A stretch of 64,000 bases of DNA from Pseudaquabacterium terrae. GTDB lineage: Bacteria > Pseudomonadota > Gammaproteobacteria > Burkholderiales > Burkholderiaceae_C. Location: the NCBI RefSeq assembly GCF_013266755.1, contig NZ_JABRWJ010000002.1, forward strand, positions 496,001-560,000, written 5' to 3'. Every line of letters begins with the position of its first letter. Position 1 is the stretch's first letter. The position numbers were made by a program, and so were the translations under genes. A model generated the notes under the pieces. That model had not been told where the DNA came from. It was given only the letters and a program-made list of their open reading frames with translations, and did no database searches. Shown piece after piece: positions 616-11,195 of the stretch.

Positions 616-3600
616 ATGGCTATCCCCAGCTTCTCATCTACCGTGGTCGCACGTGCCGCTGCGGCGCTTTACGGCATCCAACTCGGCAACGCCACCATGA
701 CGTCGGTGCTGGCTGAAGCCAACCTGGGCGGCGGCGGCATCGGCGCGCTGATCAACGGCGTGTACGCCCGCGACTTCGGCACGAAGTCCGCCCACGATGT
801 GGCCGTGCTGGTCACCGCCAACCTGGGCATCACCGGCGCCGGCGTGACCGACGCTGTGGCCTACCTCGAGAACCTGCTGAACACCACGCCCGCCGCCGAG
901 CGCGGCATGGCGATTGCCGACGCTGCTGCGCTGTTCTCCGGCCTGACCAGCGATGGCGTCTACGGCGCCGCTGCCTCCGCGTTCAACGGCCGCATCGCCT
1001 CGGCGGTGGCCTACGCGCAGACCGCTGGCACGATCGACCGTCCGTTCAATGCCGGCGCGAGCCTCGGCATGACCATGGGTCAGGACTTCCTGAGCGGCAC
1101 CCCGGGCAACGATGTCATCCAAGCCCGTATCTTCAACAACAGCAACAGCTGGCAGTCTGGTGACTGGACCGACGGTGGCGCCGGCAACGACCGCATCGAA
1201 GCCGACATGGGCTCGTCGGCAGTCTTCTCGGTCACGCCGGAAACCACCGGCGTCGAGCAGATCGCTGTCCGCGCTCAATCGCATCAGACCGATTCCGGTG
1301 ACAACAACGTTTCGAACTTCTCGCGCGTTCAGATCGATGCCGAGCGCATCGTCGGCGCCACGCGGTTCGAGTCGAACAACAGCCGCGCTGATCTCATCTT
1401 CGAAGACGTCCGGATCCTGCCGTCGCAGATCACCAAGGACATCACGATCGCCATGGTCGAAACCGACCCCGGCCATGTCGACTACGCGGTGTACTTCGAC
1501 CAGTATTCGCTGAAGAACCAAGTCAGCAACACCTCGTCGATCAACCTGCAGATCATGGACACGGTTGCCGCCGCGGCCGGTCTGGCACCGCTGCTGAACA
1601 GCAACTACGGTGCGTTCACCTTCACGGTCACGATCGGTGGCGTTGCCCGCACCGTCACGCTGGGCTCGCAGGCGATCCAGGACGCGCAGACGTACGCTCA
1701 ACTGGCTGCTGCCTTCCAGACTGCCCTGAACGCCGAATTCGGCGCCGGCGTCGCGACGGCCACCGTCGGTGACAACTTCACCGTGGTCGACCCCGCCTCG
1801 CGCATCGCGGTCACCGGTCAGAACATCGTGCTGACCACCAACACGCTGGCCACGTTCTCGACCCCCGCGGGCTCGGGCTGGCTGGCGGACGGCGTGGCTC
1901 CCCCGGCGTCGAACTTCTACACCAACTTCTTCACCGGCACGACCGCATCGGCCAGCCTGGTCACGTCGACGGTCATCCTCGACGACGTGGGTCGCGGCTC
2001 CACCGGCGGTGAGCTCGTCATCGGCGGCCTGTCGGTCGGCACGACGTCCTCGTCGCTGGGCGTTCAGCGCTTCGAAATCGAAGTGCGCGACAACAGCAAG
2101 CTGGAGTCGATCAACTCGACCAACAACACGCTGCGTGAAGTCACCATCGTCAACGGCGTGACGACCAGCAGCTCGCACGCCTACGTCCCGACCGTCCAGG
2201 ACGCCGGCAACCTTACGGTGAACGGCAACGCCGGTGCCAACGGCGCCAACGTCAGCGGTTCCAGCGGTCGCGTCCCCGTCAGCACCATCACTGACGCGGC
2301 CACGGCTCCTGGCAATAACGCCATCAATGGCGTTCAAAGCACGACGAATGTCCTGGCTCCGATCACGACGTTCGGCTTCAGCGATGTTCGCCTGATTGAC
2401 GCATCGACGATGCGCGGCAAGTTCGAGTTCACCGCCCAGGTGACCGCGTCCTCGCTCGCCAAGTACCTGAACCTGAAGGACATCCAGAGCAACCCGGCCG
2501 GCGACAACATCGCGTTCACCTACAACGGTGGCACGAACGACGACACGATGTGGGTGCGTCTCGATACAGGCTTTGCTGCCAGCCGCAACACCATCATGGT
2601 GGGTCGCGAGGACTTCACCTTCACGGCCAACGGCGGTACCGGCAATGACTGGATCAACGTCGCGCTGACGCCAACCCCCGGTGGCGACCAGGCCTGGTAC
2701 ACCAACCAGAAGCTGAACAAGAACCTCACGATCAACGGCGATGCGGGTGACGACGTCATCCGCAAGCCGGGTGCGGGTGATTTCATCATCAATGGCGGCA
2801 CTGGCCTCGACACGGTCTACGCCGACAACTCCGGCACGCAGGCCATCGCGGCCGGCAACGCCAGCCTGGCCGGCGCGGTCTACACCGCGGCGGAAGCAGC
2901 AGAACTGGCTGCAGCGCTCGCGCTGGCCAACCTCGCCAACTCGACGAACGATGGTGCCGCTGTGGCGCCGCAGCCCGCCAACACCGGCAACCCGAATCCG
3001 CTGGGCCAGGCGGACACCACGGTCGCCGCGTTGAATACGCTGGACCTGTTCCTGCCGGTGACCTTCGTCGACCCGGCGGATGCCACGCTCCCGCTGGTGG
3101 TGTCGCATGCCAACCTGAAGACTCAGATCGACAACGCCTACGCGGCCGGCGCGCTGACCGTGGCGCAGCAGCAAGCGCTGTATGTTGCCTACAACGTGGC
3201 GAGCGCTGGCACGATCATTACGCCGGCAACGCTGGTGGCCCGACCCGACATCACCGACGAAGTGGCGGTGGCAGGCAACCTGACGGCTGCCGAGTTCGCG
3301 GCCGGCAATGCGGTGCTCGATGGGTACCTCGTGGCAGCAAGGGCCGCCGCGGCGACGGCCGATGCCGCCGACGCTCGGGTAGCCACTGAAGCAGGCCTGT
3401 TGAACGCCACGCAGCTCGCGGTGGTCAATGCGCAGCTTGCGGTCAATGGTGTCTTCAGCTGGGAAGCCGACGAGACCATCGCTGGCATCAACCTGAACGG
3501 CAACGGCACGGCGGTGGTCCTGAACGGGCTGACGGCGCTCCGGACCGCCCTGGTCCTTGGCGCCACCGACGCGGCTGTGCTCGCGGCGCTGGTGAACGCT

Positions 3601-5379
3601 CGTGACAACCAGATCATCACCGACGCGGAGGCAACGGCGCTGCTGAACGCCTCCATCTCTGGTGGCGCTGGCACGGTCGACGCGGCCGAGCTGTTCGCGA
3701 TCCAGGTCATCCTGGAGCCGATGATCGCTACTGCAACGGCGCTCAACACGGCGGCCAACGACGCGTTGACCGCTGCGATCGCTGCCAATAACACGGCAGT
3801 GCGCACGGCAGCCGGTATCGTTGGTGCAGACCCGTTCACTGCGGCGGCGTCGGCTGTCGCCAATGACTTCGTTGGTTCGACCGAGGCTGCTGCGGCTGCC
3901 ACGGCCGCGCAAACGGCTCTGACGGCGTTCAACAACGCCACGCTGAACCCGGCACTGGCGCTCCAGGCCGCCCTGGCCGCGCTGAAGAGCGCGATCGCAG
4001 TGGGCGTTTCGGACCTGAACGTGACCCTGCTCACCGCAGCCGCGGTGGCCGCAGGCACGATCACGGCTGGTGACAAGGTCGCCATCGACAACGCGTCGGG
4101 CGCGACCCCGACCGCGGCTGCCGACACGGTGAACCTGACCGAGAAGAACGCCACCGACGTCCTGATCACCGCGCTGCAGGTTGCGAACAACGCCGTGGTT
4201 GCCCAGGCTCAGCAGGAAGCCGCGACGCTGACCGCCATCCGCGACGCCACCGCATTCGCGTCAGCTCAGGCGCTGGCTGCTGCAAACGCAAGCCCGGGCG
4301 CCGGAACCGGCCCGTTCGACGCGACCAGCAGCCGGGCAGTGTGGGTGCTGAACACGGCCAGCCAGGCGGCGGTCTCGACCGCCCCGGGTACGCCGTACGT
4401 GCTCGCCGTCAACGACGAGCGCAATGTCTTTGACCTGAAGTCCGACGCGAACAACACCTACAACTTCTTCGCGGCACGGGTGACGGTGACGTTCAAGGAC
4501 ATCACCGCGAGCGTCGAGATCCCGAACACGGGCTTCCGCACCAGCGATCTGCAGATCAACCAGGCCATCAAGGACGCCATCAACAACAACGTGGTGCTGA
4601 ACAAGCTGATCAGCGCCACGGATGGCCCCGCGAACACCCTGGTGATCACCTCGCTGATCGATGGCGTGATGTCGAACGCCAACTTCGGTGTGGCGCTGAC
4701 GCTGCCGGCTCTGGCTGGCATCGTTGACGTCGCCGGTGCGGCTGCCGTCTACGGCACCGCCTCGACCGCTGAAGCTGTCCTGGCCGCCATGACGACGGCC
4801 CTGGCTGCGTTCAACACGAAGGGTGACTACGTCGACCAACTGGCTGAAACCGGTGCCTTCGGCGGCAACGCCCAGGTCACGGGCGCTGCCAGCGTCACGA
4901 CCAGCGACAACACCATCACCCCGGGAGATGGCAACGACGTGACCGTGCTGGGTACGACGGTGGGTACGGATGCGCTGCTGTCGAGCAACGACCGCGTCGT
5001 GTTCGGTGCCAACTTCGGCAACGACACGGTCGTGCACTTCCAGGCGGGTGCGCAGACCACGGGTGGTGACGTGCTGGTGCTGGCGGCTCTGGGTGGCAGC
5101 ATCCTGGGCACGGCGTTCAACGTCAACAACTCGATCAACGTCGCGAACGAGACGACGGCGAACGACACGGCTGCCGAGATTGCCGCGCTGTTTGCCGATT
5201 CGGCGACCGCTCAGACGCACGTCTACATCGCTGTCGACATCCTGACCAACATCGGCAAGGTGTACACCGTGTCCGATGCGGCAGGTACCGCCGCGGGCAA
5301 CGTGACGGCCACCCTGGCCGGCACGATCGACCTGGCCGACACGCTGTGGAGCACGCTGACCGCCGACAACTTCGCCTGA
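616..5379 (+). CDS. S-layer/RTX-like secreted surface protein (type I secretion substrate)
   Basis: The protein has 1587 residues and no Sec signal peptide. It is very rich in Ala, Thr, Asn, Gly and Val and almost devoid of Cys. Degenerate RTX-type calcium-binding nonapeptides are visible near residues 160-190 (SGTPGNDVI, DGGAGNDRIEADM) and 676-737 (GGTGNDWI, GDAGDDVIRKPG, NGGTGLDTVYAD). A long Ala-rich, probably helical stretch covers about 740-1240. The C-terminus (about 1437-1587: DGNDVTVLG, GNDTVVHF, IGKVYTVSDAAG, final DTLWSTLTADNFA) looks like the uncleaved type I secretion tail of 'bluetail'-type beta surface proteins. Start ATG 616 has an AGGAG site. Two hairpins follow the stop codon, and the T1SS genes lie immediately downstream. 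Function as an S-layer or giant adhesin is inferred from composition, size and context. Confidence 0.78.
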   Translation: MAIPSFSSTVVARAAAALYGIQLGNATMTSVLAEANLGGGGIGALINGVYARDFGTKSAHDVAVLVTANLGITGAGVTDAVAYLENLLNTTPAAERGMAIADAAALFSGLTSDGVYGAAASAFNGRIASAVAYAQTAGTIDRPFNAGASLGMTMGQDFLSGTPGNDVIQARIFNNSNSWQSGDWTDGGAGNDRIEADMGSSAVFSVTPETTGVEQIAVRAQSHQTDSGDNNVSNFSRVQIDAERIVGATRFESNNSRADLIFEDVRILPSQITKDITIAMVETDPGHVDYAVYFDQYSLKNQVSNTSSINLQIMDTVAAAAGLAPLLNSNYGAFTFTVTIGGVARTVTLGSQAIQDAQTYAQLAAAFQTALNAEFGAGVATATVGDNFTVVDPASRIAVTGQNIVLTTNTLATFSTPAGSGWLADGVAPPASNFYTNFFTGTTASASLVTSTVILDDVGRGSTGGELVIGGLSVGTTSSSLGVQRFEIEVRDNSKLESINSTNNTLREVTIVNGVTTSSSHAYVPTVQDAGNLTVNGNAGANGANVSGSSGRVPVSTITDAATAPGNNAINGVQSTTNVLAPITTFGFSDVRLIDASTMRGKFEFTAQVTASSLAKYLNLKDIQSNPAGDNIAFTYNGGTNDDTMWVRLDTGFAASRNTIMVGREDFTFTANGGTGNDWINVALTPTPGGDQAWYTNQKLNKNLTINGDAGDDVIRKPGAGDFIINGGTGLDTVYADNSGTQAIAAGNASLAGAVYTAAEAAELAAALALANLANSTNDGAAVAPQPANTGNPNPLGQADTTVAALNTLDLFLPVTFVDPADATLPLVVSHANLKTQIDNAYAAGALTVAQQQALYVAYNVASAGTIITPATLVARPDITDEVAVAGNLTAAEFAAGNAVLDGYLVAARAAAATADAADARVATEAGLLNATQLAVVNAQLAVNGVFSWEADETIAGINLNGNGTAVVLNGLTALRTALVLGATDAAVLAALVNARDNQIITDAEATALLNASISGGAGTVDAAELFAIQVILEPMIATATALNTAANDALTAAIAANNTAVRTAAGIVGADPFTAAASAVANDFVGSTEAAAAATAAQTALTAFNNATLNPALALQAALAALKSAIAVGVSDLNVTLLTAAAVAAGTITAGDKVAIDNASGATPTAAADTVNLTEKNATDVLITALQVANNAVVAQAQQEAATLTAIRDATAFASAQALAAANASPGAGTGPFDATSSRAVWVLNTASQAAVSTAPGTPYVLAVNDERNVFDLKSDANNTYNFFAARVTVTFKDITASVEIPNTGFRTSDLQINQAIKDAINNNVVLNKLISATDGPANTLVITSLIDGVMSNANFGVALTLPALAGIVDVAGAAAVYGTASTAEAVLAAMTTALAAFNTKGDYVDQLAETGAFGGNAQVTGAASVTTSDNTITPGDGNDVTVLGTTVGTDALLSSNDRVVFGANFGNDTVVHFQAGAQTTGGDVLVLAALGGSILGTAFNVNNSINVANETTANDTAAEIAALFADSATAQTHVYIAVDILTNIGKVYTVSDAAGTAAGNVTATLAGTIDLADTLWSTLTADNFA

Positions 5380-5390
5380 TCGAAGTAGCA

Positions 5391-5412
5391 ACCCCCGCCG
5401 CAGGGCGGGGGT
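5391..5412 (+). terminator. G/C-rich hairpin after the S-layer-like gene
   Basis: ACCCCCGCC pairs with GGCGGGGGT around a 4-nt loop (9-bp stem), starting 12 nt after the TGA. There is no T-run, so it probably protects the 3' end or assists the stronger terminator 32 nt further on. Confidence 0.5.
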
Positions 5413-5444
5413 GCGCCGAGTGGCAACACCCGGCGCTGCAATGC

Positions 5445-5476
5445 AAAGCCGCGCTGCGAACCAGCGCGGCTTTTTT
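5445..5476 (+). terminator. Strong Rho-independent terminator
   Basis: A perfect 12-bp stem (AAAGCCGCGCTG at 5445-5456 with CAGCGCGGCTTT at 5462-5473) and a 5-nt loop run into six consecutive T residues at 5471-5476. It separates the abundant S-layer-type transcript from the secretion operon. Confidence 0.88.
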
Positions 5477-5485
5477 CATTCCATT

Positions 5486-5556
5486 CCCGCCCACGCTATC
5501 GCGGGCTAATTGGTGGCGTGAGCGGCCACCACGTCGCAATGGCCCCACGATCGTGG
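5486..5556. repeat. Cluster of three inverted repeats between terminator and operon promoter
   Basis: In 71 bp there are three symmetrical elements: CCCGC 5486-5490 with GCGGG 5501-5505; TGGTGGC 5511-5517 with GCCACCA 5525-5531; and a perfect 12-bp palindrome CCACGATCGTGG at 5545-5556. The last lies just upstream of the expected -35 position of the next promoter, as an operator would. Alternatively the cluster could be part of a small structured RNA. Confidence 0.45.
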
Positions 5557-5582
5557 TCAAGTAAGAATGTTCATATAAGGAC

Positions 5583-5592
5583 CTGCTACACT
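5583..5592 (+). promoter_or_regulatory. Extended -10 promoter of the secretion operon
   Basis: CTGCTACACT includes TG-n (5584-5586) followed by TACACT (5587-5592; four of six matches to TATAAT). No clear -35 is visible, which is usual for extended -10 promoters. The GTG start codon at 5601 is only 8 nt after the hexamer, so the transcript would be leaderless or nearly so. Confidence 0.5.
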
Positions 5593-5600
5593 CGCGCCCC

Positions 5601-6254
5601 GTGAAGCCCCAGGTCGCACTGAACATTGCCCTCCATCCGGGCCAAACCGAACGGCTGATCCATTTGCAGCAGATGTTCGCCCAAGCCTGTAATCACCTTG
5701 CTCCCATCGTCCAGCAGACACGCTGCTGGAACCGCGTGGCCTTGCATCACATGGCCTATCGCGGGCTGAGAGAGCAGTTCCCGATGCTGGGCTCGCAGAT
5801 GGCCTGCAATGCAATCTATTCCGTCTCGCGTACCTGCCGTGCGCTCTATCAGAACCCCAGCAGCCCGTATGCGCTGCACAAGCTCGGCAACGGCCCGCTG
5901 CCCCAGGTGCTGTTCCTGCCGCAGTCACCGGTGTACTTCGATCGCCACACGCTCAGCCTCAAGAACGGCCGTGCATCGATGTACACGCTCGACGGGCGCA
6001 TCAAGTTCAACCTCGACCTCACCGAGGCCCAGGAGGCGCGCTTTCGCAGCTCGCGCCTGCGCGAGATCGTCATGAGCACGCAGGCTGCCGGCCTGGTGCT
6101 CACTTTCACCTTCGACGATCCGCAGGCCGACGACGCCGAGTTCGACCTTCGCAATGCCGACCTGCCCGAATACGTGCTCGTCACCGACAACACCCCGCCA
6201 CCACCCGTCATGCCGCCGCTCTCGCTGACCCCCAACAAGGAGTCTCTCCAATGA
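5601..6254 (+). CDS. RuvC-less TnpB-like N-terminal-domain protein in a T1SS operon
   Basis: The protein has 217 residues and starts at GTG. Residues about 1-85 follow the IS200/IS605 (IS1341-type) TnpB N-terminal pattern: a beta strand plus HPGQTERL, then ACNHLAPIV, then the helix MAYRGLREQFPMLGSQMACN. Residues about 115-165 match the TnpB wedge/OB-like region (VYFDRHTLSLKNGRAS, TLDGRIKFNL). The chain then ends in an acidic/proline tail near DNTPPPPVMPP. The RuvC and zinc-finger half that would carry the DED catalytic residues is absent. Its stop overlaps the ATG of the first exporter gene (ATGA), so it is co-translated with the secretion apparatus and is not a free transposon remnant. This suggests a domesticated nucleic-acid-binding regulator. 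Homology is judged by eye; an RNA partner is speculation. Confidence 0.68.
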   Translation: MKPQVALNIALHPGQTERLIHLQQMFAQACNHLAPIVQQTRCWNRVALHHMAYRGLREQFPMLGSQMACNAIYSVSRTCRALYQNPSSPYALHKLGNGPLPQVLFLPQSPVYFDRHTLSLKNGRASMYTLDGRIKFNLDLTEAQEARFRSSRLREIVMSTQAAGLVLTFTFDDPQADDAEFDLRNADLPEYVLVTDNTPPPPVMPPLSLTPNKESLQ

Positions 6255-8056
6255 CTCAAGCGGCTCCTGGCCAGCCCGCCCCCGGGATCGTCCTCACCGT
6301 CATCCTGAAGCAGCGTGCCCACCTGCAACGCGCCATCTGGTACAGCCTGGTCATCGGCACGCTGCTGCTGCTGGTGCCGTCCTGGTACATGTTCGAGGTC
6401 TACGGCCGCGTGCTGAACAGCCGCAACACGACCACGCTGCTGTGGCTGCTGGTGATGGTGATGGGCGTGTACGTCGTCGTCGAAGTGCTCGACCTGGTGC
6501 GCTCGCGGGCGCTGCACGCGGTGGCCGAGGCCTTCAACAAGGTGCTGAAGGAACCCGTCTTCGACGCCGTGTTCCAGGCCAACCTGAAGAAGCAGCCCGG
6601 CGGCACGACCCAGCCCTTCAATGACCTGAAGGCGTTGCGCGACTTCATCGCATCCCCGTTCGTCACTGCCGTCCTGGACACCCCCGCTGCCGTGATCTGC
6701 CTGGTGCTGCTGTTCGCGCTCGGCTTCTGGCTGGGCGTGCTGGCGCTGATCGGTGCCGCCGTGCAGGTGTGGCTGATCTGGCTGACCCAGCGCCGCACGA
6801 TGCCGTTGCTGACGAATGCCAGCGTGGCCTCGATCGCAGCGCAGAACTACGCCTCGAATGCGCTGCGCAACGCGCAGGTCATCGAGTCGATGGGCATGCT
6901 CGGCCGCGTGCACGCCCAGTGGGTCAAGCGCCAGAACAAGTTCCTGGCCCGGCAGGCCGAAGCGTCCGATTACGCCGGCATCACGTCCGCCGTGGCCAAG
7001 ATGCTGCAGGTGATGCAGGGATCGGTGCTGCTGGGCGGCGCCACCTGGGCGATGCTGCACAACAACCTGTGGGGCGGCGGCGGCATGGTGATCGTCGCCT
7101 CGATCCTGGGGGGACGCGCGTTGCAGCCGCTGGCGCAGCTGGTGGCTCAATGGCGCACCTTCGTGCAGGCCCGCGATGCCCAGCAGCGCATGAACAACCT
7201 GCTGGCCAACTTCGCGCCGCCGGAGCCGTCGATGCCCTTGCCCGCACCCGAGGGCAAGCTGGTGGTCGAAGACGTGCAGGCCGGCGCGCCGGGCAGCCCG
7301 CTGCGCATCCTGCACGGCGTGAAGTTCACGGCGATGCCCGGCGAGCTGACGCTCATCATCGGCCCGACGGCGTCCGGCAAGAGCACGCTCGCCCGCCTGC
7401 TGGTCGGCGTGTGGCCTTGCGCAGCCGGCAAGGTGCGCCTCGACGGCGCGGACGTGTACGCCTGGGACAAGCAGCAGCTGGGGCCGCACATGGGCTACCT
7501 GCCGCAGAACGTCGAGCTCTTCGACGGCACCGTGGCCGAGAACGTGGCGCGCTTCGGTGATGTCGACATGGACGCCGTGAAGGCCGCCATCGAAATCACC
7601 GGCATGCGTTCCACCATCGAAGCGCTGCCGGACGGCTACGAGACCCGCATCGGCGACGACGGCGCCGTGCTGTCGGGCGGCCAGCGCCAGCGGCTGGGCC
7701 TGGCGCGCGCGCTCTACGGAACCCCCAAGGTGCTGGTGCTCGACGAGCCCAACTCCAGCCTCGATGCCGCGGGCGACAAGAACCTGCTCGAACTGATCAC
7801 CCGACTCAAGACCGCGGGAATGACCATCGTTGCCATCACGCACCGCAATACCCTGATGCCCGCCGTCGACAAGATCGTGCTGCTGCACGACGGCAAGGTG
7901 CTCGCCTTCGGCCCGCGCGACGAAGTGCTCGGAGCGCTGGCCAAGGCGAACGAGATGCGCGCTGCAGCGGCCGCCAAGCCGGCGGCGCCCGTGGCGGCGC
8001 CGGCCGGACCGTCCTTGACCGTCATGCCCATGGCGCAGCCGGGAGCGAAGGCATGA
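6251..8056 (+). CDS. Type I secretion ABC transporter, PrtD family (first of a tandem pair)
   Basis: The protein has 601 residues and combines an inner-membrane exporter domain (about 25-300, several hydrophobic helices) with a cytoplasmic ATPase. Visible motifs are Walker A GPTASGKST at about 371, signature LSGGQRQR at about 474, Walker B VLVLDEP at about 494 and the switch histidine in AITHR. Length and order are those of the PrtD/type_I_sec_PrtD family, which exports RTX proteins and lacks the N-terminal C39-like domain of HlyB. The last 30 residues form an Ala/Pro tail. Start ATG 6251 overlaps the preceding stop and the end overlaps the next start, so translation is coupled throughout. 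It most likely exports the S-layer-like protein. Confidence 0.92.
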   Translation: MTQAAPGQPAPGIVLTVILKQRAHLQRAIWYSLVIGTLLLLVPSWYMFEVYGRVLNSRNTTTLLWLLVMVMGVYVVVEVLDLVRSRALHAVAEAFNKVLKEPVFDAVFQANLKKQPGGTTQPFNDLKALRDFIASPFVTAVLDTPAAVICLVLLFALGFWLGVLALIGAAVQVWLIWLTQRRTMPLLTNASVASIAAQNYASNALRNAQVIESMGMLGRVHAQWVKRQNKFLARQAEASDYAGITSAVAKMLQVMQGSVLLGGATWAMLHNNLWGGGGMVIVASILGGRALQPLAQLVAQWRTFVQARDAQQRMNNLLANFAPPEPSMPLPAPEGKLVVEDVQAGAPGSPLRILHGVKFTAMPGELTLIIGPTASGKSTLARLLVGVWPCAAGKVRLDGADVYAWDKQQLGPHMGYLPQNVELFDGTVAENVARFGDVDMDAVKAAIEITGMRSTIEALPDGYETRIGDDGAVLSGGQRQRLGLARALYGTPKVLVLDEPNSSLDAAGDKNLLELITRLKTAGMTIVAITHRNTLMPAVDKIVLLHDGKVLAFGPRDEVLGALAKANEMRAAAAAKPAAPVAAPAGPSLTVMPMAQPGAKA

Positions 8057-9834
8057 GCAACTCCAAGCAAACCGATGGCGTGAACGCGCCCGAGCTGAAG
8101 GCCATCCTGCTCGGCTTCCGCCGCGAAGTGGCGTGGGTGGCCGTCTTCGGCATCTTCTCCAACCTGATGATGCTGACGCCGACGCTGTACATGATGCAGG
8201 TCTTCGACCGCGTCATGCTCAGCAACAGCGAGTACACGCTGGCCGCGCTGTCGATGCTGGCGGTGGTGCTGTACCTGGTGATGGGTTTCGCCGACTGGGC
8301 GCGTTCGCGGCTGCTGGTGCGGGTCGGCACGCGTTTCGACACGCTGGCGCAGCGCCAGATCTTCCGCGCCAGCTTCGACGCCAAGCTGCGCAGCACCACG
8401 AGCGCGAACCCGCAGGCCCTGAACGACCTGACGCAGCTGCGCCAGTTCCTCACCGGCAACGGCATCTACGCGGCGGTGGACACGCCCTGGGTGCTGGTCT
8501 TCACCGCGGCGCTGTACCTCATCCACCCGTGGCTGGGCTACGCCGCCGCCGCCTTCGTGGTGCTGATGCTGGGCGTCGCAGTGATCGGCAGCCGAGTGAT
8601 GGGGCCGCTGCAGGAGAAGGTGCAGGCCGCGCAAGTCGACAGCAACACCTACCTCGCCGGCAAGCTGCGCAATGCCGAGACGGTCGAGGCCTTCGGCATG
8701 CTGAAGCACTTTCGCCGCCGCTGGCTGTCGATCCACGATCGGCAGACCGAGGTGCAGTCGCGCGCCCAGGAAGCCACGCACCGCCTGCAGACCGTGACCA
8801 AGTTCGTGCAGTACGCGCAGCAGTCGCTCGTGCTCGCGCTCGGCGCGGTGCTCGCGATCAACGGCCAGATCAGCGCCGGCGCCATGCTGGCCTGCAATGC
8901 CTTGATGGGCAACGCGCTGCGGCCGATCGGCCTGGCCGCCGGCAGCTGGGGCCAGTTCATCGACGCGCGCGCCGCCTATCGCCGCATCAGCAAGCTGCTG
9001 CAAGAGCATCCGCCCCGCAATGACGGCGCCGACGAGGTGCCCGACCTGAAGGGTCAGGTCAGCCTGCGCGGCCTGGTGGCGAAGGCCGCCGGCCGCACGC
9101 AGCCGATCCTCAAGGGCATCGACCTGGAGTTCCGCGCCGGTGAGGTGGTGGCCATCGTCGGCCCCTCGGGCGCCGGCAAGTCCACGCTGGCGCGCTGCCT
9201 GATGGGCATCTGGCCCGACACCGAGGGCGAGGTTCTCATCGACGGCACGCCGCTGCAGCGCTGGCCGCGCGACGCGATCGGCGCCCGCATGGGCTACCTG
9301 CCGCAGGACATCGAGCTGTTCGAGGGCACGATCGAGGAGAACATCGCGCGCTTCGAGGACGGCCGGGACGAGGACGTCATCCAGGCCGCCAGACGCACCG
9401 GCATCCACGACATGGTGCTGCGCATGCCGCGCGGCTACGACACGCCGATGGGCGAGGCCGGCAACACTTTGTCGGGCGGCCAGCGGCAGCGCATCGGCCT
9501 GGCGCGCGCGATCTTCGGCGACCCCGCGGTGGTGGTGCTGGACGAACCCAACGCCAGCCTCGACGACGCCGGCGAAGCCGCGCTGGTGAGCGCCGTGCGC
9601 GACCTCAAGACCCGCGGCACCACCGTCTTCATGATCGTCCACCAGCAGAACCTGCTGGCCGTGGCCGACCGCGTGCTGTTCCTCGAGAACGGCCAGGTCA
9701 CCCGTTTCGTGCCGCTGGTCGCGCAGAACCAGGCCAACGCCAACGCCGGCGGCGCCCAGTCGCCTTCCGCATCCTCGGCCGCTCCCGCTGGCCAGAACGA
9801 GATCGTGGCCCGCGCGGGCCCGAGCACACCATGA
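8053..9834 (+). CDS. Type I secretion ABC transporter, PrtD family (second of a tandem pair)
   Basis: The protein has 593 residues and the same architecture as its upstream neighbour: transmembrane region about 25-300, Walker A GPSGAGKST at about 369, LSGGQRQR at about 473, VVVLDEP at about 494. The switch-loop histidine is in MIVHQQN. Both ATPase sites look intact. The two genes are clearly paralogous but well diverged, and they share an ATGA overlap, which favours equal synthesis and a heterodimeric exporter. Typical PrtDEF operons carry only one such gene. The alternative is that each copy forms a homodimer for a different substrate. Its stop overlaps the start of the HlyD-type gene. Confidence 0.92.
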   Translation: MSNSKQTDGVNAPELKAILLGFRREVAWVAVFGIFSNLMMLTPTLYMMQVFDRVMLSNSEYTLAALSMLAVVLYLVMGFADWARSRLLVRVGTRFDTLAQRQIFRASFDAKLRSTTSANPQALNDLTQLRQFLTGNGIYAAVDTPWVLVFTAALYLIHPWLGYAAAAFVVLMLGVAVIGSRVMGPLQEKVQAAQVDSNTYLAGKLRNAETVEAFGMLKHFRRRWLSIHDRQTEVQSRAQEATHRLQTVTKFVQYAQQSLVLALGAVLAINGQISAGAMLACNALMGNALRPIGLAAGSWGQFIDARAAYRRISKLLQEHPPRNDGADEVPDLKGQVSLRGLVAKAAGRTQPILKGIDLEFRAGEVVAIVGPSGAGKSTLARCLMGIWPDTEGEVLIDGTPLQRWPRDAIGARMGYLPQDIELFEGTIEENIARFEDGRDEDVIQAARRTGIHDMVLRMPRGYDTPMGEAGNTLSGGQRQRIGLARAIFGDPAVVVLDEPNASLDDAGEAALVSAVRDLKTRGTTVFMIVHQQNLLAVADRVLFLENGQVTRFVPLVAQNQANANAGGAQSPSASSAAPAGQNEIVARAGPSTP

Positions 9835-11195
9835 GCAACACCACTCCTTTGCGGCGGGTCCCTCCCGCATCCCCGGCCGACGTCACCGATGTCGACGATT
9901 CGGCGTTGAAGAGCGACACCCGGCCGGTCATCCGCCTCGGCTTCTGGGTGCTGATCGTCGGTTTCGGCCTGTTCCTGCTGTGGGCGGCGTTCGCGCCGCT
10001 CGACGAGGGAGTCTCCGCACCGGCCACGGTGTCCATCGAGACGCGGCGCAAGACGATCCAGCACATGATCGGCGGCGTCGTGCAGACGGTCACCGTCAAG
10101 GAAGGCCAGCAGGTCAAGGAGGGCGACGTGCTGATCACGCTCGACGATGCGACCGTCCGCGCCAACCACGAGGCCATTCGCCAGAACTACCTGTCGCAGC
10201 GGGCCCTCGAGAGCCGGCTGCTGTCGGAGATCGCGGGCGCCGGCACGATCAACTTCCACCCCGATCTGCGCGCGAGCAAGGATGCCATCGCGGCCCAGCA
10301 CATGCTGGTGCAGCAGCAGCTGTTCAACTCCAGGCGCGCCGCCCAGCAGGCGGAGCTCGCCGCGGCCCGGCAGTCGATCGCCGGCACCGAGGGCCAGATC
10401 TCCGGCCTGCGGCTGATGCTCGACAGCCGCAAGGCCCAGGCCGGCATCCAGGACGAGCAGGTGAAGAACGTGCGCTCGCTGGCCAACGACGGCTTCGCGC
10501 CGCGCAACCAGGCGCTGCAGCTCGAACAGGCGCAGGCCGAGCTGCGCACCTCGATGGCCGACCTGCAGACCAACATCCAGCGGGCCCAGAGTTCGATCGC
10601 GGAACTGCGGCTGAAGATCGCGCAGCGCGAGCAGGAGTACCTGAAGGAAGTGTCGACGCAGCTGGCCGAAGTGCGGCGCGAGGTCCAGGCGAACCAGGAG
10701 AAGCTGGTCGCCATCGGCACCGACCTCGGCCGCATGCAGATCAAGTCGCCGGTGGCCGGCCAGGTGATCGGACTGCAGGTCGCCGGCCAGGGTGGCGTGG
10801 TGCAGCCCGGCCAGCACCTGATGGACATCGTGCCCCAGGGCGCGTCGCTGCTGCTCGACGCCAAGGTGCCGCCCCACATGATCGACCGCGTCAAGGTCGG
10901 CGAGATCGCCGAAGTGCGCTTCTCGACCTTCGCCGACGCGCCGCAGCTGGTGGTGCACGGCAAGATCGTCTCGCTGGCCGGCGACTCCATCAACGAGCAG
11001 GTCGGTGGCAACGTGCTCACCTACTACCTGGCCCGGGTCGCGATCACGCCGGAAGGCCAGAAGGCGCTCGGCAACCGCGTGCTGCAGCCGGGCATGGTGG
11101 CCGAAGTGCTGATCAAGACCGGCGAGCGCTCGCTGCTGACCTACATGCTGCATCCGCTGATGAAGCGCATCGCCACGGCGATGACCGAGGAGTGA
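9831..11195 (+). CDS. HlyD/PrtE-family periplasmic adaptor (membrane fusion protein)
   Basis: The protein has 454 residues. A cytoplasmic N-terminal tail of about 35 residues precedes one transmembrane helix (about 37-58, FWVLIVGFGLFLLWAAFAPL). A lipoyl-like half domain, a long helical hairpin rich in Gln, Glu and Ala (about 105-300), a second lipoyl half (SPVAGQVIGLQVAGQGGVV) and a beta-barrel/C-terminal domain follow. This is the standard type I secretion adaptor linking the inner-membrane exporter to TolC. Start ATG 9831 overlaps the exporter stop; the end is 5 nt before the TolC-type ATG. Confidence 0.93.
   Translation: MSNTTPLRRVPPASPADVTDVDDSALKSDTRPVIRLGFWVLIVGFGLFLLWAAFAPLDEGVSAPATVSIETRRKTIQHMIGGVVQTVTVKEGQQVKEGDVLITLDDATVRANHEAIRQNYLSQRALESRLLSEIAGAGTINFHPDLRASKDAIAAQHMLVQQQLFNSRRAAQQAELAAARQSIAGTEGQISGLRLMLDSRKAQAGIQDEQVKNVRSLANDGFAPRNQALQLEQAQAELRTSMADLQTNIQRAQSSIAELRLKIAQREQEYLKEVSTQLAEVRREVQANQEKLVAIGTDLGRMQIKSPVAGQVIGLQVAGQGGVVQPGQHLMDIVPQGASLLLDAKVPPHMIDRVKVGEIAEVRFSTFADAPQLVVHGKIVSLAGDSINEQVGGNVLTYYLARVAITPEGQKALGNRVLQPGMVAEVLIKTGERSLLTYMLHPLMKRIATAMTEE

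Follow-up and report, generated by a model that had tools for sequence, protein, structure and literature searches.

TnpB is a transposon nuclease and the ancestor of CRISPR-Cas12, and the locus described here raises the question of what the N-terminal half of such a protein does at the head of a type I secretion operon. The protein, which is TnpB-like, lacks the RuvC domain and comprises 217 residues, is encoded from a GTG start on the forward strand at positions 5601..6254 of a window from Pseudaquabacterium terrae, the window being the whole stretch of 64,000 nucleotides that was analysed. According to profile, alignment and model, it consists of a recognition (REC) domain between two wedge (WED) segments, followed by an acidic tail (WED1-REC-WED2 plus tail). 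We consider it likely that the protein would act as an autoregulator of the secretion operon, probably as a repressor, which reads a transposon-associated motif (TAM) without RNA. The original prediction, made from the sequence alone, had suggested a DNA- or RNA-binding regulator. This can be sharpened to a DNA-binding autoregulator by the operator-like sites and their match to the TAM, whereas the RNA-binding part is not favoured.

A RuvC-less family related to TnpB

Judged by its sequence, the protein belongs to a family that is conserved and found mostly in betaproteobacteria. Of the 299 genomes searched within the taxonomic family, 30 gave a match at E ≤ 0.001, of which 26 (own genome included) were strong; the four weak matches are a member cut by a contig end (L029) and three short proteins of a different kind (L027, L028, L030; loci and genomes are given by L and G numbers). 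A pattern scan of the genome contigs added 23 loci, and the total of 49 minus three duplicates left 46 distinct proteins. These counts do not include seven more strong matches (L110, L111, L113-L117), which come from genomes of the same order but outside the taxonomic family. The alignment A1 contains 42 of the 46 proteins (L012, L019, L026 and L053 were excluded), and its members are 45-59% identical to the window protein. All of the TnpB N-terminal landmarks named in the original prediction are present and fall within conserved family blocks: HPGQTERL corresponds to the consensus xPEQxARL, and there are many invariant positions within GSQMACN, VYFDRHTLSL and TLDGRIKF. The upstream alignments revealed that the GTG start in the window matches the ATG of the orthologs. 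Moreover, the predicted open reading frame is real, and its TGA overlaps the ATG of an ABC gene at 6251 (ATGA).

A secretion ABC gene lies directly downstream in all 45 testable loci, its projected start being located -38 to +190 nt from the stop codon; in the 46th locus (L050), the contig ends and the position of the exporter is unreadable. Where the locus is long (22 cases, L031-L053 except L050), genes for a second ABC transporter and a HlyD protein come next. Furthermore, the ratio of nonsynonymous to synonymous substitution rates (dN/dS) was 0.07-0.26 in nine hand-picked ortholog pairs, three of which have a dS above 1. Thus, the proposal that selection has kept the gene together with the secretion genes is borne out, and the orthologs do lie beside the exporter. 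Since the nuclease half is gone, the gene could also be viewed as a functionless remnant of a decaying transposon. This is barely conceivable, as it is contradicted by the intactness of the gene at 45-59% identity, the dN/dS values, the fixed position in the operon and the conserved operator described below.

The window protein alone gave no match in Pfam, NCBIfam or the PDB sequences, and routine annotation therefore overlooks it. No convincing Pfam E-value was obtained for the 42 aligned members, and a search of the PDB sequences with the family profile was likewise empty. The relationship to TnpB became visible when 19 distinct proteins, taken as PF01385 matches from 60 related genomes, were scored with the profile A1. 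Six of them matched, namely five L065-type near copies from one genome (1.1e-28 to 1.7e-28) and L061 (2.2e-7), with a best control E-value of 1.2 (20 shuffles and one reversal per protein). The ordinary ISDra2-type TnpBs among the 19, such as L054, did not match A1, and the link of the family to them therefore passes via closer TnpBs. In searches that scored up to seven first-look candidates per genome, A1 matched in at least 18 of 399 genomes of the order and in at least four of 398 genomes of the phylum, two of which were known before. The closer full-length TnpBs matched by A1 include L118 (2.5e-42) and L138 (3.4e-39), both of which carry PF01385 and PF07282. On the Methylomarinovum tepidoasis plasmid IN45P, tnpA is located directly upstream of a related gene annotated 'transposase'. 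In a tree rebuilt without six distant TnpBs and L026, one branch parts 45 family members from six TnpBs with a support of 100/95; the first tree, which took in more distant TnpBs, could not be used because its branches were very long and TnpBs were nested within the family.

The AlphaFold (AF2) model of the window protein, with a predicted local confidence (pLDDT) of 87.8 and a predicted template-modelling score (pTM) of 0.81, consists of one strand, three long helices and a strand-rich part. A Foldseek search against the PDB returned seven chains at E ≤ 1e-3, all of which are Cas12f, and ISFba1 TnpB in 11th place at 5e-3; three viral models were found at E ≤ 1e-3, the top one being named ISCaje1 transposase and the other two carrying no name. 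Profile and fold thus agree on a WED domain with an inserted helical REC domain as in TnpB, and the match to TnpB N-terminal domains on which the original prediction hinged was found, by profile to TnpB and by fold to Cas12f/TnpB REC-WED. Sequence and model together identify the protein as a homologue of TnpB's REC/wedge half, from which it originated. The full-length IS200/IS605 TnpBs L118, L138 and L148 share the homologous WED1-REC-WED2 and near-identical REC helices with the family, and L138 and L148 are also flanked by the TTCAT discussed below. In contrast to these proteins, which contain RuvC and a zinc finger, the family has no nuclease lobe, and no left end of an insertion sequence (IS) was found at its loci. 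Likewise, the family shares its fold with Cas12f, which gave the best matches of the model, but Cas12f is an RNA-guided CRISPR nuclease with a nuclease lobe.

The window protein ends before RuvC, as had been read from the sequence: the A1 match stops ahead of the RuvC motif MG(V/I)D(I/V)GEN, and the combination of a RuvC catalytic domain and a TNB zinc finger that characterises TnpB was not found. With the RuvC half of L118 as the query, nothing was detected at E ≤ 0.1 in L001-L053, whose flanks extend over 1.5 to 8 kb unless the contig is shorter, so a separate RuvC half near the orthologs, which would have spoken against the original prediction, did not turn up. The window's genome contains no match to PF01385 or PF07282 at E ≤ 0.001, and no Rfam family reached the cut-off within positions 5200-6400 of the window. 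The 3' end of the gene abuts the ABC gene, at the place where the omega RNA would arise from the right end of a TnpB element. No sequence resembling the left ends of the relatives' IS was found up to 2 kb upstream in the 46 loci (24-mer, ≤6 substitutions; right ends were not searched), and the earlier statement that transposon ends do not flank the gene holds for the left ends.

Where RuvC would be, at about residues 176-217 of the window protein, there is a variable linker followed by a short PEYVxVE-like motif. This tail is acidic, the median isoelectric point being 7.05 for the whole protein versus 9.6 for the first 175 residues. In the six short proteins L027, L028, L030, L123, L125 and L126 (about 80-120 residues), only the REC-helix part is matched, with the pattern W..xTxxHLAYRxLxxxxPxL; three of them were scanned and had no Pfam match at the cut-off. 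They are possibly an even smaller, REC-only derivative or a chance likeness of helices.

An operator-like inverted repeat at the promoter

The upstream alignments of the family genes revealed an inverted repeat, TTCATATAGGA ... TCCTATATGAA, which is a new observation beyond the original prediction. The two TTCATATAGGA copies face each other on either side of the -10 box, and the start codon lies inside the right copy. At ≤1 mismatch and within 120 nt of the start, an arm in left orientation is present in 38 of the 46 loci, one in right orientation in 41 and both in 36. The facing pair occurs in 33 loci, and left and right arms independently give the same 11-mer; Aquabacterium humicola (L033) is one relative whose operator is intact. 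In 38 of the 46 loci (≤1 mismatch), the right arm spans -6 to +5 of the start codon and the ATG therefore belongs to the arm, a count that may be inflated because the choice of starts favoured ATGs in an ATATGA context. Nearly all chosen starts sit 24 codons ahead of the same motif. The start-to-start distance of the arms is 22-36 and mostly 26-28 (24 of 33). A -10-like hexamer is located between the arms (-30 to -7) in 43 of 44 loci versus 38% of shuffles, and in 42 of the 44 it ends 6-14 nt ahead of the start codon. Because the hexamer is so near to the start codon, the mRNA is predicted to be leaderless or nearly so.

Since the arms are complementary and the start codon falls within the right one, the inverted repeat could in principle work at the RNA level by folding into a hairpin that covers the start codon. 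This is very improbable: the left arm should stay untranscribed because the -10-like hexamer lies between the arms, and L004 carries direct and not facing copies. In L019, L050 and L053, extra N-terminal residues separate the operator-embedded ATG from the start of the conserved fold, and these loci look as if the operator holds the start codon in place.

The 11-mer co-occurs with the gene. Besides the window's own genome, 25 genomes gave a strong family match, and 23 of these contain an exact copy (G024 and G025 do not), versus two of 24 genomes without such a match; among these 24 are G124 with its cut member, G333 and three genomes that encode short relatives. By coordinates, 40 of the 43 exact copies in the family-bearing genomes sit at this promoter, and a backwards control pattern gave two matches in all 49 genomes. 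Thus, a conserved operator-like site that co-occurs with the gene exists at its own promoter, as would be expected of an autoregulator, and in the window it is degenerate. A search with the ABC protein in the 24 control genomes found G006, G007, G296 and G124. In the first three, the exporter loci (L141, L142 and L143) lack the gene, and no arm was found upstream of them at ≤1 mismatch; they are a weak control because they are single-ABC systems with 36-46% identity and not strict orthologs.

The arms could also be the site of another transcription factor, with the TnpB half acting elsewhere in the operon, for instance on the exporter or on the cargo mRNA. Autoregulation is deduced from position and co-occurrence, which leaves room for such a factor, and yet we regard it as unlikely, because the exact site is found mostly at this promoter and mostly in gene-bearing genomes, and because its first letters are those that flank the TnpB relatives of this protein on the left. 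A wider regulon was considered and rejected. The motif occurs at ≤1 mismatch at four places in the window's own genome versus three for the backwards control, none of them on the window's contig, and of the five extra exact copies (in family-bearing genomes two in G205 and one in G214, and two in genomes without a strong match), the surroundings of four were examined and showed no exporter gene nearby.

In the window, the left operator arm TTCATATAAGGA (5570..5581, forward strand), which was assigned by ortholog position and consensus, corresponds to TTCATATAGGA with one extra A and opens with TTCAT. It is followed by a predicted -10-like TACACT at 5587..5592 (forward strand, consensus reading) with a TG at 5584-5585 (extended -10). 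The place of the right arm, where the orthologs have TCCTATATGAA with the start codon, is occupied by the degenerate CGCCCCGTGAA (5595..5605, reverse strand). Control by the operator is probably weaker or altered in the window's species because neither site is intact: the left one carries an insertion and the right one has decayed. A perfect 12-bp palindrome, CCACGATCGTGG, lies at 5545-5556, 13 bp upstream of the left arm, and is possibly the site of another regulator.

TTCAT and a proposed reading of DNA without a guide

It is established for IS200/IS605 elements that the sequence flanking the left end belongs to the target and is identical with the TAM. In the IS copies that carry the nearest TnpBs, the left boundary is sharp and shared: TTCAT, then AGAA and a conserved left end. 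Of 23 copies of the TnpB group that were examined, 13 have a recognisable left end, and all 13 carry TTCAT (six in G333, three in G406, two in G460, one in G710 and one in Methylomarinovum tepidoasis). The ten others (L060, L065, L072, L074, L118, L122, L124, L129, L130 and L149) are masked, truncated or without this left end. In the Methylomarinovum tepidoasis copy (L148), about 1.5 kb separate tnpA from the presumed left end and contain an IS4 transposase gene, so that the assignment of this left end was deduced. As each operator arm opens with TTCAT, this stretch of the operator may represent the ancestral TAM. A search for empty sites with one IS in ten genomes of its genus gave no contiguous site. 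Across the same insertion junction, the frame extends over 238 codons with TTCAT kept versus 126 without, which is only a hint because a frame of 212/210 codons on the opposite strand is open either way. About ten TnpB IS copies are present in G333 alone (L060, L065, L067-L074), and six copies with an intact left end measure 1746 bp from TTCAT to the right end. These copies are good material for addressing the question of the TTCAT TAM.

The structure of ISDra2 TnpB assigns residues 1-12 and 117-176 to WED and 13-116 to REC; the TAM is contacted by Y52, S56, K76, F77 and Q80 of REC and by T123 and N124 of WED, and it is chiefly WED and RuvC that hold the RNA scaffold (PMC10097598). In a sequence alignment, which is not a structural superposition, K76, F77 and Q80 align with S65, Q66 and C69 of the window protein. 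Family members and the TnpBs L118, L138, L119, L121 and L065 have almost the same residues in the blocks WNRVALHH and LGSQMxCNAI; Q66, C69 and N70 are identical in all five of these TnpBs and S65 in four. The TTCAT flank is readable for four of the five, the exception being L118. L122 and L124 diverge in the TAM-reading helix. By alignment, the TAM-reading helices appear to be nearly unchanged in the family.

How could such a protein find its site? A regulator of the TldR kind, which is guided by RNA, would account for the 11 bp differently, with a guide RNA still being held and the operator being composed of a 5-bp TAM and a 6-nt seed (ATAGGA). The length of the operator, TAM plus six, agrees with this idea, as do the de-repression caused by mutations in the seed nucleotides 1-6 of TldR (PMC13418256) and the share of WED in RNA binding in TnpB (PMC10097598). 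Because TldR needs the seed positions 1-6, a seed-only RNA-guided mode could operate here as well. However, this is improbable for several reasons. In 20 loci, the TAM-proximal stretch of the operator is not repeated within the locus beyond the best of 20 shuffles (the longest repeat is 9 nt), and the 6-mer is absent outside the operator region in nine of the 20. The complete genome G262 holds the 12-nt TAM-proximal sequence of each arm exactly once, and places with one mismatch number 2 and 5 versus 1 and 5 for the controls. Furthermore, RuvC is absent, and neither the nuclease profiles in the window's genome nor Rfam around the gene gave a match, as described above.

We are inclined to believe that TnpB's REC/wedge half is able to function by itself, as a transcription factor that recognises a specific sequence without RNA and whose operator is the ancestral TAM in extended form. 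The gene derives from the tnpB of an IS200/IS605-type element of the Cas12f-like TnpB group. Its nuclease lobe, made up of RuvC and the zinc finger, is gone, and with it a part that in TnpB does much of the holding of the guide RNA; the REC/wedge half, the clamp and reader of the TAM duplex, has been retained. This half would bind double-stranded DNA at TTCATATAGGA without RNA, and one protein molecule would occupy each 11-bp site, which is likely because each site is asymmetric and the distance between the sites varies. With two facing sites around its own -10, one upstream of it and one over the start codon (the transcription start is predicted), the bound protein would block RNA polymerase, and this negative autoregulation would set the level of the ABC-ABC-HlyD operon. 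It is also conceivable that the protein activates instead of repressing.

Besides the possible inflation of the right-arm count, the weak exporter control and the sequence-based mapping of residues, several observations weigh against RNA-free autoregulation through an ancestral TAM. The facing pair is incomplete in 13 of the 46 loci, among them the window itself (L001, L004, L008, L015, L016, L018, L021, L023, L024, L026, L035, L045 and L052). L021 is without any arm at ≤1 mismatch and L018 without a left arm; L026 was scored as armless through a misplaced start (the left arm is visible in the alignment), L035 has only 23 nt upstream, and L004, L008, L016, L045 and L052 carry an extra copy of the arm further upstream. 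The variable spacing of the arms is ill-suited to a rigid dimer. In the window, the operator is degenerate, with an insertion in the left arm and 5 of 11 matches in the right one; the left arm alone is within chance (two matches at ≤2 mismatches versus 1.19 expected), and the exact 11-mer occurs nowhere in the window's own genome. As for the TAM, TTCAT or its complement is contained in 3.6% of shuffles of the operator letters, and the match alone is therefore modest evidence; L122 may carry TTCAC at the matching place. Moreover, the wedge block FDRHT, which lies near T123/N124, is less alike (38% identity for the five TnpBs at the invariant sites of 109-122), and the top Foldseek matches are only 8-14% identical.

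TldR proteins retain the RuvC fold and have lost catalysis, and the window protein lacks this fold. To our knowledge, exaptation of TnpB is so far known only in RNA-guided form (TldR, Cas12). With TldR, which is nuclease-dead yet binds guide RNA and DNA (PMC13418256), the family would have in common a domesticated TnpB at a promoter and a TAM-like TTCAT beside a conserved sequence, here deduced from sequence. Unlike TldR, the family has no nuclease lobe and no guide that could be found, and its candidate target is the promoter of the gene itself. The arrangement also resembles that of classical autoregulatory repressors, with an operator around the -10 and a place at the head of the operon; we know of none among them that binds DNA through a REC/wedge fold. 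Among the open-licence papers listed, none on a RuvC-less TnpB regulator came up, and PMC9956272 likewise yielded nothing on it. If our reading is correct, the family would represent a new class of DNA-binding domain, and RNA-free binding, if shown, would be categorically new. It would invert the customary arrangement, in which few bases are read by the protein and the rest by RNA, and it raises the question of how a REC/wedge half finds DNA without RNA and how an 11-bp specificity has grown from a 5-bp TAM. The protein would also offer a TAM/PAM reader that is naturally minimal, at about 175 residues, and it would regulate a large betaproteobacterial secretion system.

The secretion operon and its surroundings

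The ABC transporter of the type I secretion system, whose gene overlaps the stop codon of the TnpB-like gene, is encoded at 6251..8056 and contains ABC_membrane and ABC_tran domains. It is followed by the second ABC transporter of the pair (8053..9834) and a HlyD-family membrane-fusion protein (9831..11195), all on the forward strand. A gene for a large low-complexity protein of 1587 residues, which is a candidate cargo, lies upstream on the same strand (616..5379); the protein had no Pfam match at E ≤ 0.001. The operator is positioned at the promoter of the exporter and not at the gene for the 1587-residue protein. Between the two, a hairpin with a T-run, AGCCGCGCTG-CGAAC-CAGCGCGGCT-TTTTT (5447..5476, forward strand), was read from the sequence. 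It is a probable terminator of the upstream gene, and the TnpB-like gene would therefore have its own promoter. A link to S-layer output, as suggested by the original prediction, may exist, but PMC10765051 lends it no support, since it treats NpdA beside a type II system and not this operon. The family member L053 stems from a metagenome bin labelled Klebsiella pneumoniae (contig CAMDGF010000028.1), a label that is probably a binning error because the first tree places L053 among betaproteobacterial members.
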